Of a stretch of 64,000 nucleotides of DNA, positions 12,345-20,588 are shown one piece after another; positions within the stretch are counted from its first letter, which is position 1; every line of letters begins with the position of its first letter. The stretch lies in the NCBI GenBank assembly GCA_019751945.1, contig JAIEMT010000016.1:62001-126000 (forward strand), given 5' to 3'. Origin of the DNA: a bacterium. GTDB lineage: Bacteria > Bdellovibrionota > UBA1018. The notes under the pieces are model-generated. The model had not been told where the DNA came from and did no database searches. It saw only the letters and a list, made by a program, of their open reading frames with translations. The position numbers were made by a program, and so were the translations under genes.

Positions 12345-12866
12345 GGGTGGGGGATGGTATGGGCTCTCACTCCAGCGATTTCAGAGAGAAATTTTCAAAA
12401 TTAACGCATCGCTTCTGACAATTTGTCGGAGGGTATTTTTGATCCACCAAAATTTCGCGACAATTTGTCAATCGTTGCTCTCGCCACTCCCTACTATTCT
12501 CAATGCCTCTGGGCAATTTTCGGGTTTCATCGGGTTTTCGAACATGAACTCGACCAGAAATCTCATTAGCAGTAGCTTGATCTCTAGGGTGTTCGAAAAC
12601 CCGAAGAAACCCGAAAATTGCCCACGCTGGGGGGTGTTGATCTTCTGGGCAGTGGGGGGAAGTTTGACGCTTTTTAGGATTCGAACTCCCCTGGTGCATT
12701 CAGGCCCCAGAGATCTCCGGGGGTTGAACCCCCCTTGTTCATGAGTTTTCGGCACCCTAATTGCTCTAGTCCGTGCGCCCAATGCGGGTTTTGGACGGAC
12801 AGAAGTGGTCACGAAAGAAACCCATAAATTTTAAATAGTTATTCGATATTATCTACCGTCGGTTAA
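12345..12866. other. Gene-poor region between divergent gspC and carD
   Basis: No convincing gene here. Frames crossing it on both strands have no family resemblance, and several simply read through the inverted repeat at 12511-12623. Besides that repeat there are two small hairpins: GGGGGTT-G-AACCCCC at 12719-12733, and GTCCGT/ACGGAC arms at 12769-12774 and 12795-12800. The bases just before the carD promoter (12820-12866) are A+T-rich. Confidence 0.6.
12511..12623. repeat. 34-bp inverted repeat, one mismatch, 45-nt loop
   Basis: The left arm is 12511-12544 (begins GGGCAATTTTCGGGTTTC, ends TTTTCGAACA). The right arm is 12590-12623 and is its reverse complement with a single mismatch (left A at 12529 opposite right A at 12605). 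The loop is 12545-12589. Each arm also holds an internal near-repeat (CGGGTTTC and CGGGTTTTC). It sits between divergent promoters, so a terminator role is unlikely. It could be a small palindromic mobile element (MITE/REP-like), a regulatory cruciform or an RNA hairpin. I saw no second copy in the window. Confidence 0.9.
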
Positions 12867-16445: not shown

Positions 16446-16793
16446 CTATTTGCCGCAGGGTTTGCAAGACCACTTGCTGCGACCCGGGAAACTGCTCCGG
16501 CACCAGCGAGGTTTTGCGTTTCCTCGACATTTGATCTTCGGGACACGGTAACCTGGCTGAGAACCAGGGCCTTTGTTCGCCACGTCGATAAAGCCTTCCG
16601 CTTCGATAGAGTCATCATCAGGGGCGGAGTCGTCGTCACTCTCATCGGTGCGATCATCATCCCAGCCGTAGCCGTCGCCATTGTCTTCAGTGAAGGGCGT
16701 TTCTTCCTCAGCTTCGTGAGAAAACGATTTTTGATTCAGGCCGACTAAGCTGATGGCGGTCAATACACTCAATAGAACGATAGACTTTTTCAT
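16446..16793 (-). CDS. Small exported protein, acidic middle and basic Cys-containing tail
   Basis: Family not recognised. The 115-aa product has a signal peptide (MKKSIVLLSVLTAISLVGL...). The mature part is split by charge: residues 27-67 are very acidic (EAEEETPF, GWDDDRTDESDDDS), while the last 40 are basic with four cysteines (KIKCRG, RWCRS, WSCKPCGK). The four cysteines could form two disulfides or bind a metal. A ribosome binding site (AGGGGA) precedes the ATG. The gene lies 61 nt after the M2 peptidase on the same strand and ends 12 nt from cysS, in convergent orientation. Confidence 0.72.
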   Translation of the reverse strand: MKKSIVLLSVLTAISLVGLNQKSFSHEAEEETPFTEDNGDGYGWDDDRTDESDDDSAPDDDSIEAEGFIDVANKGPGSQPGYRVPKIKCRGNAKPRWCRSSFPGRSKWSCKPCGK

Positions 16794-16854: not shown

Positions 16855-18693
16855 TTATCGTCCGGTGGCGTGCTCTGAGGGCCCCTTTTGAGCGTCCCAA
16901 CCCACGGTTGTTCCCTTGTTTTGCTCGTCGAGCCACTTCTTGAGCGGCGCAAAATATTCCATGACGGCGCCGGCATCCAGTTCGGTTTTACCGGTGAGCT
17001 TCTTCAAGGTTTCAGGCCACGGTTTACTGCGACCTTCGGCCAACATTTCGCGGAACATCCTTCCGGCCTTTTCGTTGCCATAGATGGAGCAGCGATGCAG
17101 AGGCTCCGTACAGCCTGCCGCTTTTGCCAAGGACTGATGGAACTGGAACTGGAGAACGCGCGCCACGAAGTAGCGGACGTACGACACGTTTGCTGGAATG
17201 TGGTACTTCGCACCCGGATCGAAATCCGCTTCCGTGCGAGTGCGCCCAGCGGGAGCAATTCCTTGGTACTCGCGTTTCAAATCCCACCAAGCTTGGTTGT
17301 ATTGAGACGGCTTAATCTCACCGTTGAAAACTTTCCAACGCCACTTGTCCATCATGATGCCGAATGGGAAGAATACGAGGCGCTCCAACGCCATCGAAAG
17401 CAATTGGCCCGTATCCTTTTTCGGGTCGTTGGTGACTTTGCTGATCAAGCCGACTTTCTGCAAGTAAGCAGGCGTGATGGAGAGAGCCACCGTGTCGCCA
17501 ATCGCTTCGTGGAAACCATCGTTCGCCCCTTCGCGGAACATGAGTGGCTGATCTTTGTAAGCGCGCTGATAGAAGGTGTGACCTAGTTCGTGGTGGGTGG
17601 TTACGAAATCTTCGCCCGTTCCCTTGATGCACATCTTGATGCGGAGATCGTCTTTGGTGTCGATGTCCCACGCGCTAGCATGGCACACCACTTCGCGGTC
17701 CAAAGGTTTTACAAACTGGGAACGAGTCCAGAAACTTTCAGGCAAAGAGGGAAGGCCCAGTGAAGTAAAAAAACCTTCGCCGTATTTCATCATTTGCACT
17801 GGAGTGACTTTGTTCTTCGCCATGACTTCGTCCAAGTCATCACCCGGTTTCATGTCTTCTGGGATAACAATTGGGGCAACCGCGTTCCACTCTTGCGCCC
17901 AGAGATTTCCCAATAAATGGGCGGGAATTGGGCCGCTTTCTGGCACCACAGAAGCACCGTATTTTTCACGCAGCTTCTTGCGCGTGTAAGCATGCAAAGA
18001 TTCATAGAGAGGTTTCACCTGATTCCAAATTCTGTCGACGTCCTTTGCGAAAGCATCAGCAGGCATGTCGAATTGAGATTTCCACATGTCGCCAGTATCT
18101 TTAAAGCCCAGCTCACGAGCCCCCTTGTTGGCGAGTTCTACAAAGCGAGTGTAGTCCTTCTTCATGGGGCGCGAGATCTGATGCCAGCCATCCCATGCAG
18201 CAAGGAGTTCCTTTGGGTCTTGGCTGGTTGAAATAATTTTTGAAATTTCGGTGATATCCAAGCAGGGTTTGCCCGGCTCTTTGCACCATTTGCCTTTGCC
18301 GTAGGTGCCTTCCATGGAGGTCAGGAGGCGCGTGAGTTCCGCACTTTCCTTGGGGTTCGATGGGGCCGCGAATGGAAAACTCACTCGCAGAAGCTGCATC
18401 TTTCTTTCCAAGTCAGCCGGCAGCTTCGCGTTTTTATACTTCATGGATTTCTTTGCGAACTCCATGGTCTTGGTGATCCAAGCTTCGTTCGCCTTCGCTG
18501 CGATAATTTCGGTGTCGTCGGTGATGTAGGTGGATTTCACCCAGTCCGCCCGTCCGGAGTCCACGACGAGAGTTTCAATTTTCGCTTCCGCGTCGTTCAT
18601 GAAGTGGCGCGCTTCATCTATTACGCTGGCTTGTGCTCCCGAACTTCCCAGGATGATAAGACCAGCTAAGACTCCGTATTTTCTCAAACTCAT
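16855..18693 (-). CDS. Exported M2-family (ACE-like) peptidyl-dipeptidase
   Basis: Zinc metallopeptidase of family M2 (angiotensin-converting-enzyme-like), predicted to remove dipeptides from peptide C-termini in the periplasm or outside the cell. Signal peptide at residues 1-22 (ends GAQA). The zinc site HHELGH gives H368, E369 and H372; the third ligand E396 (GFHEAIGD) is 28 residues after the first His, the same spacing as in ACE. At 612 aa it fits bacterial M2 enzymes. Its own transcript is likely, as the gene upstream is on the opposite strand. It is a candidate T2SS cargo, which is inference. Confidence 0.9.
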   Translation of the reverse strand: MSLRKYGVLAGLIILGSSGAQASVIDEARHFMNDAEAKIETLVVDSGRADWVKSTYITDDTEIIAAKANEAWITKTMEFAKKSMKYKNAKLPADLERKMQLLRVSFPFAAPSNPKESAELTRLLTSMEGTYGKGKWCKEPGKPCLDITEISKIISTSQDPKELLAAWDGWHQISRPMKKDYTRFVELANKGARELGFKDTGDMWKSQFDMPADAFAKDVDRIWNQVKPLYESLHAYTRKKLREKYGASVVPESGPIPAHLLGNLWAQEWNAVAPIVIPEDMKPGDDLDEVMAKNKVTPVQMMKYGEGFFTSLGLPSLPESFWTRSQFVKPLDREVVCHASAWDIDTKDDLRIKMCIKGTGEDFVTTHHELGHTFYQRAYKDQPLMFREGANDGFHEAIGDTVALSITPAYLQKVGLISKVTNDPKKDTGQLLSMALERLVFFPFGIMMDKWRWKVFNGEIKPSQYNQAWWDLKREYQGIAPAGRTRTEADFDPGAKYHIPANVSYVRYFVARVLQFQFHQSLAKAAGCTEPLHRCSIYGNEKAGRMFREMLAEGRSKPWPETLKKLTGKTELDAGAVMEYFAPLKKWLDEQNKGTTVGWDAQKGPSEHATGR

Positions 18694-18834
18694 GAATTCT
18701 CTCCGATTCGTTTTTTAGTAAGCAGAAACGACGGGTTACCCTCTTTGTCGGGGGCAGTCAAGCTGATCAAATGTGAAGGGGGAAATCGGATTTAATCATC
18801 AAAATTTCTAATGATCTCCGATTATTTTAAATCA

Positions 18835-18864
18835 TTGGCCGGTAGGGAAGTGACTCGATATAAC
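18835..18864 (+). promoter_or_regulatory. Sigma-70-type promoter of the 46-aa peptide gene
   Basis: TTGGCC at 18835-18840, an 18-nt spacer, then TATAAC at 18859-18864. The likely start near 18871 leaves an 80-nt leader before the ATG at 18952. The upstream 18694-18834 is A+T-rich in part (UP-element-like ATTATTTTAAAT) and holds no gene that I can see. Confidence 0.5.
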
Positions 18865-18879
18865 TAGCGCATGTCCTGA

Positions 18880-18928
18880 TTTTTAATTCTGGGCCGCGTC
18901 CACTGGGGCCGCGACGTAGAATCAAAAA
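18880..18928 (+). other. Leader stem-loop before the 46-aa peptide gene
   Basis: TTTTTAATTCT (18880-18890) pairs with AGAATCAAAAA (18918-18928), 11-nt arms with one A-C mismatch. The enclosed G+C-rich loop carries two direct copies of GGGCCGCG. It lies in the predicted 5' leader, 23 nt before the start codon. It may stabilise the message or control translation. Confidence 0.45.
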
Positions 18929-18951
18929 GCAAGACAAGAACCGGAGTTCGT

Positions 18952-19092
18952 ATGAAGAGTTACTGGGAATTGACTCTTGTTTTTGCTAGCTTGGTCTTTG
19001 TAGCGACGATGACAAGCAAAATTGGACACGCAGGTTACATCATTCCAGCCTGCGCGTCGAATGGACCTGCTCTGCAGGTAAGCTGCCGATAG
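18952..19092 (+). CDS. 46-aa secreted two-cysteine peptide precursor
   Basis: Short gene, M-K-S-Y-W-E start, 46 codons. Residues 1-27 look like a signal peptide (hydrophobic core LTLVFASLVFVATM, cleavage after GHA). The mature peptide would be about 19 residues, beginning GYIIPACASNGP and ending with LQVSCR, with two cysteines able to form one disulfide loop. GGAG lies 5 nt before the ATG. The unit has a promoter, a structured leader and a strong terminator 48 nt after the stop, so it looks like an independent gene. No family recognised; it could be a signalling or bacteriocin-like peptide, or a small RNA that also encodes a peptide. Confidence 0.65.
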   Translation: MKSYWELTLVFASLVFVATMTSKIGHAGYIIPACASNGPALQVSCR

Positions 19093-19139
19093 AATTGGTC
19101 TTCGACTCGGTAGTTTAGTCAGTCGTCCGTTCCGATAAG

Positions 19140-19197
19140 GGGTCCATCAGGAGAGGCAAGCCCCCCTTGCTCTTGTTGATGGACCCTTTGTTTTTTT
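19140..19197 (+). terminator. Rho-independent terminator
   Basis: GGGTCCATCA (19140-19149) pairs perfectly with TGATGGACCC (19177-19186). The stem nearly continues inward (AGAGGCAAG with CTTGCTCT around a C-rich loop). It is followed by TTTGTTTTTTT to 19197. This ends the 46-aa peptide transcript on the plus strand. Confidence 0.9.
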
Positions 19198-19293: not shown

Positions 19294-19545
19294 ATGAAGA
19301 AATCTATTTTGTTGGTGGCTTTGATGTTTGCTGCTCCGGCGATGGCCGATATTCCGAACAAGAATGCAGTGACTGTCAACGGTGCAGATGCTGAGAATGT
19401 TTATCAGAAGATTGTAGATGTTACGAAGCAAAGGCCGAAGAATGATCGTCATGGACGAGCGACTGTCAGCGCTTCCGCTACGGTAACCTGCAAGCAGCAC
19501 GGCAGCCCGAAAGACGTGGCTTGCATCGTGAGCGTAAATAAATAA
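19294..19545 (+). CDS. Small exported protein, unknown
   Basis: 83 aa with signal peptide (MKKSILLVALMFAAPAMA|DIP). The mature part of about 65 residues has two cysteines (VTCKQHG, DVACIVS) and beta-rich sequence (RATVSASATVTC). I chose the ATG at 19294: it has GAGAGGGA upstream and starts a clean signal peptide; an ATG at 19258 would add 12 residues. A possible promoter is TTGCGT-17-TAATGC ending near 19248. The leader contains TTAATGCGCCGCATT (19242-19256), similar to one before the secreted protein at 25304. No family recognised. Confidence 0.72.
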   Translation: MKKSILLVALMFAAPAMADIPNKNAVTVNGADAENVYQKIVDVTKQRPKNDRHGRATVSASATVTCKQHGSPKDVACIVSVNK

Positions 19546-19547
19546 GC

Positions 19548-20588
19548 ATGACTTTAGTTTTAGCGAGGCTCGATACGGTTCGGGCCTCGCTTTTACGCTT
19601 TACGCTTTCGTTTGATTTTGCTCGCGAGGTTTTCGTTTCGCGCGCGAACCGTCTGCTCGTTTCCTTTTTATTCTCCTGCGCGTTGAGCTTCGCTCTGGCG
19701 GTAGTCGCTCCGGTTTGGATGATTGCGTTGGCGCCGCTCCTACTGGGCATTCCGCATCTCTTCGCGGGCTTTCGGTACATCCCTAAACTTTCAGGGCTGA
19801 ACGGTCGCCAGTGGGTTTGGTTTTTTACGGCTGCATCCTTTGGCGTCTCCATTTTGCGGCTGACTGGAGTGAGTACCCCGATCCCGCTTTCCAATGAATG
19901 GGAAGTCTTAGCGCTAGTTCTGGTGCTAGGCGCTTTTTCTTTTGCGCTGCCTCGCCGAGTATTTCTGTCGGCAGCGCTTTTACTGGGTGTCTTTGCTGGC
20001 TCTTGGTTTTATCCACTTTGGACCTTAAGCATACTGGCTTTTGCTCATCATTTTGTAGCGTTCATGTTTTGGTTGCGGTCGGCGAAAAGTCTTCAAGAGC
20101 GCCGCACGGTTTGGGTATCGCTCGGAATTTTTACGGCAGCCACGACGTACATTTTAGCGGGTGGGGTCGACTCCATCGCTCCTTGGATGGCGCTGCCTTC
20201 GGGTTGGGGTTTTGATCCGGACTTCCTAATACGCGGAATTTTTCCGGCGGCTTCTCAAGCTGATTTTGTTTGGGGCGGGCGTCTGATTTCTGCTTACGCT
20301 TTTGGTCAGTCCCTTCACTACTTTGTTTGGCTGAAGGCCATTCCGGAACAAGATGCGCTGCAGAGTGTGCCGCTGAGTTTCGTTCAGTCGGGTCGGGAGA
20401 TTCAAAAAGACCTGGGACCGGGGGTGGCTCGAGCTGCAGTGGCGATGAGTGTGGGCCTTGTCGGAATGATGGCTTGGTGGAATTTAGAATATCTTCGGGA
20501 CCTTTACATTTCTCTCTCCACCGCTCATGGGTATTTGGAATTGGCGAGCCTTCCCTTTTTGGTGGGAATGTCCCGAGCACGTGCATGA
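19548..20588 (+). CDS. Polytopic membrane protein with conserved-looking histidines
   Basis: 346 aa with about eight hydrophobic segments. Several histidines lie in or near membrane segments: GIPHLFAGF, FAHHFVAFMFW, GQSLHYFVWLK and AHGYLELA. This layout is reminiscent of integral membrane metal- or haem-dependent enzymes such as Brp/Blh carotenoid oxygenases, but the resemblance is weak and I do not assign a function. It starts 2 nt after the stop of the small secreted protein and overlaps the next membrane gene by ATGA, so the two membrane proteins may form a complex. Confidence 0.75.
   Translation: MTLVLARLDTVRASLLRFTLSFDFAREVFVSRANRLLVSFLFSCALSFALAVVAPVWMIALAPLLLGIPHLFAGFRYIPKLSGLNGRQWVWFFTAASFGVSILRLTGVSTPIPLSNEWEVLALVLVLGAFSFALPRRVFLSAALLLGVFAGSWFYPLWTLSILAFAHHFVAFMFWLRSAKSLQERRTVWVSLGIFTAATTYILAGGVDSIAPWMALPSGWGFDPDFLIRGIFPAASQADFVWGGRLISAYAFGQSLHYFVWLKAIPEQDALQSVPLSFVQSGREIQKDLGPGVARAAVAMSVGLVGMMAWWNLEYLRDLYISLSTAHGYLELASLPFLVGMSRARA

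Follow-up and report, generated by a model that had tools for sequence, protein, structure and literature searches.

A probable small gene for an exported two-cysteine peptide in an intergenic gap of a bacterial genome

Export-sensing leader peptides that bear signal sequences, such as SecM and VemP, are known. In Enterobacteriaceae, microproteins encoded by intergenic small ORFs of 15-70 codons have been catalogued, and these are hydrophobic and of unknown function (PMC11188072). Lineage-restricted sRNAs without homologues have been reported in Bdellovibrio (PMC3627812). The locus described here occupies a 600-bp gap in a window of 64 kb, i.e. the whole stretch of DNA that was analysed, and contains a 46-codon ORF whose parts are listed in Table 1; these parts and the statistics given for them below were observed directly. 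The locus is probably a small monocistronic gene, specific to its lineage, whose product is exported by Sec as a two-cysteine peptide of ~19 residues. Genes of this kind, namely orphan intergenic microproteins, are common, and the evidence reaches as far as this kind and no further. An isolated transcription unit encoding a signal peptide and a two-cysteine mature peptide had been proposed in an earlier, sequence-only reading, and this is still the best reading of the anatomy.

Table 1. Features of the 46-codon unit, with positions counted from the first nucleotide of the window.
Feature	Position	Strand	Basis
Sigma-70-like promoter TTGGCC-18-TATAAC (TTGGCC, 18835-18840; 18-nt spacer; TATAAC, 18859-18864)	18835..18864	+	consensus match in sequence
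5' leader hairpin, 25 pairs	18870..18936 (or 18872-18936)	+	MFE -23.8 kcal/mol, z -3.1
Shine-Dalgarno-like GGAG, 5 nt before ATG	18943..18946	+	sequence
46-codon ORF, MKSYWELTLVFASLVFVATMTSKIGHA/GYIIPACASNGPALQVSCR (slash, predicted cleavage after residue 27; ATG at 18952, TAG at 19090-19092)	18952..19092	+	translation, heuristic signal peptide
Predicted mature peptide, 19 residues, Cys34 and Cys45 (C-x10-C)	19033..19089	+	inferred from cleavage site
Strong intrinsic terminator (stem, 19137-19189; T tract, 19187-19197)	19137..19197	+	24-nt arms, z -5.6

The GGAG and the 46-codon gene were found in the sequence where the earlier reading had placed them. Within the 600-bp gap, this ORF is the sole short frame on the plus strand that combines a ribosome site with a signal-like start. 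When the gap was shuffled, a frame of 30-80 codons with a ribosome site at its start codon and a signal-peptide-like start arose by chance in 0.3% (ATG) or 0.8% (any start codon) of the shuffles; because the signal-peptide rule is our own heuristic and was drawn up with the ORF in view, these figures are optimistic. The 64-kb window contains 1042 short frames; of these, 109 have a ribosome site and 16 a signal-like start, and the two properties coincide only in the 46-codon ORF. If they were independent, ~1.7 such frames would be expected in 128 kb (both strands), so that one such frame anywhere in the window would be no surprise, yet its occurrence within this single short transcript is improbable. 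Codon usage is neutral on whether the ORF is translated and does not discriminate: the overall codon log-likelihood ratio (LLR) is -2.8 bits, which places the ORF at the 3rd percentile of coding segments, and the synonymous codon LLR is ~0, a value at the 11th percentile of genes and within the top 12% of the null. Taken together, the ORF is likely to be coding, as judged from its sequence features.

The terminator is the best-supported part of the unit. The strong terminator claimed in the sequence-only reading was found in place, its stem exceeding chance with a z of -5.6 (0 of 300 shuffles), although the gap between the stop codon and the terminator is 44 nt and not 48 nt as had been given. 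Its T tract is present on the plus strand only, with none on the minus strand, and the presence of a plus-strand terminator with no other convincing plus-strand gene ahead of it counts for the 46-codon gene. In addition, with the upstream gene pointing away from the gap and only one qualifying short frame within it, this terminator provides independent evidence of a plus-strand transcript starting inside the gap, and a short transcript of this kind is likely. The promoter motif also lies where it had been reported, and is a modest match (9 of 12 consensus positions); when the 258-nt upstream region was shuffled, 4.2% of the sequences contained a match of this grade, and taken alone the promoter is weak evidence. 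It is the sole relaxed hit on either strand between 18601 and 19300, and a standard, stricter scan misses it owing to the C at its final position. A transcript start near 18871 is probable, and the resulting leader of ~80 nt contains the stem-loop previously noted there, whose stability is above chance (1 of 300 shuffles as stable). The occurrence of promoter, hairpin, Shine-Dalgarno sequence, ORF, and terminator in working order and spacing also counts for the gene reading.

The divergent gene upstream of the unit (16855-18693, minus strand) encodes an M2-family (ACE-like) peptidase. It was not found in the 34 other genomes of the family and was possibly acquired horizontally; its best matches (about 55-60%) are in Acidobacteria. 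A search with this peptidase for near relatives by synteny gave mostly Acidobacteria, and it is therefore useless as a syntenic marker. Downstream of this gene, on the same strand (16446-16793), a 115-aa protein is encoded that is secreted and acidic, has a basic tail containing cysteine, and has no family match. Between the divergent genes, an imperfect dyad, AATCGGATTTAATCAT...ATGATCTCCGATT, was identified at 18784-18823, with a partial direct repeat, TCTCCGATT, at 18700. The dyad folds no better than chance and is a possible candidate for a regulator site. Elsewhere in the window, an inverted repeat (12510-12624; 35-nt arms, 97% complementary, 45 nt apart) was found in the gap upstream of a 181-aa ORF (12877).

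The predicted precursor has a K in its n-region and a hydrophobic 10-mer with a mean of 2.86. The h-region is ~14 residues long and is followed by G-H-A, a combination more in keeping with a signal that is cleaved than with an anchor in the membrane. A lipobox reading was rejected, as the IPAC motif is located ~14 residues past the hydrophobic stretch. A single-sequence structure model gave an N-terminal helix with low confidence and was otherwise uninformative.

Beyond the terminator, the region 19294-20588 contains a gene for an 83-aa secreted protein (from 19294), directly followed by a gene for a 346-aa membrane protein (from 19548); neither product has a Pfam match. Homologues of the membrane protein are found in seven relatives, and in all seven a small, highly diverged secreted protein, the mature part of which mostly starts with an A-D-[IF]-x-P-like or A-D-I-P-like sequence, is encoded close upstream. 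To judge from these sequences, the small secreted protein and the membrane protein form a conserved pair. The 83-aa protein ends in the loop CKQHGSPKDVAC, and the corresponding loop of the 46-aa peptide is CASNGPALQVSC; both have C-x10-C spacing and are identical at C1, G5, V10, and C12. By shuffling, this likeness has a p value of 0.026, or 0.055 with the cysteines fixed in place. The two proteins are possibly related via the loop, which counts for the gene reading but may be taken as a lead and not as proof of kinship. An origin by DNA duplication of the neighbouring unit was rejected, the alignment score being within the range of shuffles.

The whole-genome collection shows no other genome from the genus. 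No significant homologue of the peptide was found in 57 other genomes of the same class or among the 368 further genomes of the phylum that were searched. The weak matches in the same-class genomes (best E value, 0.014; 29-55% identity) have partial coverage, and several lie within much longer frames. At the DNA level, the 57 same-class genomes yielded nothing significant except the window's own locus. The peptide has no paralogue in its own genome, where it is present in a single copy, and no homologue was found among plasmids; one insignificant match of 24 residues (E value, 0.5) was obtained with phages. Searches of Pfam, NCBIfam, PADLOC, and PHROGs returned no family at E<=1, and nothing significant was found among PDB chains.

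The RNA itself folds better than shuffled sequences, with a z of -5.6 including the terminator and -3.5 without it, and the combined leader, ORF, and 3' part have a fold that is somewhat better than in synonymously recoded sequences (z -2.3); these values leave room for a structured non-coding or dual-function RNA. In the non-coding case, the stable hairpins and terminator would themselves be the product, a regulatory RNA of ~325 nt that carries a chance ORF and acts by base pairing or protein binding. The stability of the leader hairpin and the low codon score of the ORF (not gene-like) would agree with this, and the sRNAs of Bdellovibrio (PMC3627812) offer a precedent by analogy only. However, the co-occurrence of a Shine-Dalgarno sequence and a signal-peptide frame with a cleavage site would then be a 0.3-0.8% chance event in the gap. 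Furthermore, no Rfam covariance model scored at the gathering threshold (the top permissive hit, a microRNA model, was far below it), and the leader hairpin, modelled by covariance from a single sequence and searched with strict filters, had no significant hit beyond its own locus in the 57 same-class genomes. A purely non-coding RNA is regarded as unlikely. The suggestion of a dual-function RNA in the sequence-only reading was not upheld: its one support is the folding in excess of shuffles, the leader hairpin was not found in the 57 relatives, and antiterminator pairing is at the level of chance. Nor was that of an abundant product, which would have to be inferred from the stable 5' hairpin and strong terminator.

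The 83-aa and 346-aa genes follow the unit and share its strand, and a promoter scoring 9 of 12 was not found in the interval from the terminator to 19294. It is conceivable that the 46-aa product is a leader peptide whose translation or export decides read-through of the terminator, i.e. an attenuator for this gene pair, in the manner of the export-sensing leader peptides mentioned above. This is highly unlikely, since the 5' arm of the terminator pairs with upstream RNA no better than shuffles do (17% of these pair as strongly) and the fold that prevails is that of the terminator, the peptide contains no recognisable arrest motif, and no comparable unit was found in the inspected regions upstream of the same gene pair in the seven relatives. 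The size of the peptide, its single hydrophobic stretch, its structured mRNA, and its orphan distribution also recall type I toxins, in which a short hydrophobic membrane peptide is encoded by a stable structured mRNA under antisense RNA control. Against this, the peptide matches neither Hok/Gef nor any other toxin family, a consensus scan detected no 9/12 antisense promoter on the minus strand over the unit, the genome contains one copy only, and the short hydrophobic stretch leads into the cleavage-like G-H-A; a toxin of this type is very unlikely.

In the preferred reading, that of a gene for an exported peptide, we infer the transcription, translation, cleavage, disulfide, and role of the 46-aa product. 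RNA polymerase would start near 18871 and stop at the terminator at ~19196, and the ~325-nt transcript would probably be stabilised by its 5' hairpin. Ribosomes would initiate at 18952 to produce a 46-residue precursor, which its hydrophobic N-terminus would direct to the Sec machinery, and signal peptidase I would cleave after Gly-His-Ala to release a 19-residue peptide. Once in the periplasm or outside the cell, its two cysteines could form a loop, and it may act there as a small, lineage-specific envelope or extracellular peptide, possibly tied to the neighbouring 83-aa secreted protein, whose cysteine loop has the same spacing. A more specific version, in which a stable lineage-specific mRNA yields an exported, disulfide-looped 19-mer that either pairs with the neighbour's cysteine loop or competes with it, as a partner of, or signal to, the adjoining secreted/membrane pair, is very unlikely. 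If real, the gene would add another secreted microprotein, of a size often missed by annotation, in a poorly studied bacterial lineage, and its own promoter and terminator would make expression of the unit simple to test; on present evidence it opens no new mechanism.

In comparison with known systems, the unit resembles SecM and VemP in having a signal sequence, a terminator downstream, and genes beyond it, but differs from them in that no arrest motif was recognised, antiterminator pairing is at chance level, and the downstream genes do not encode export machinery. With Hok it shares its size, an N-terminal hydrophobic stretch, and a structured mRNA, whereas it has a predicted cleavage site and neither a family match nor an antisense RNA signal. 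The adjacent 83-aa protein of the secreted/membrane pair is similar in its location, its Sec signal, and a C-x10-C loop in which G and V coincide, but is longer than the 46-aa peptide and is encoded by a separate ORF downstream of the terminator, and the likeness has a p value of about 0.03-0.06. Like the catalogued microproteins of Enterobacteriaceae (PMC11188072), the 46-codon ORF is small, intergenic, and hydrophobic; unlike these, which were chosen for purifying selection across genomes, it yielded no homologue in the collections searched, and it differs from them further in its dedicated terminator and in a signal that looks cleavable.
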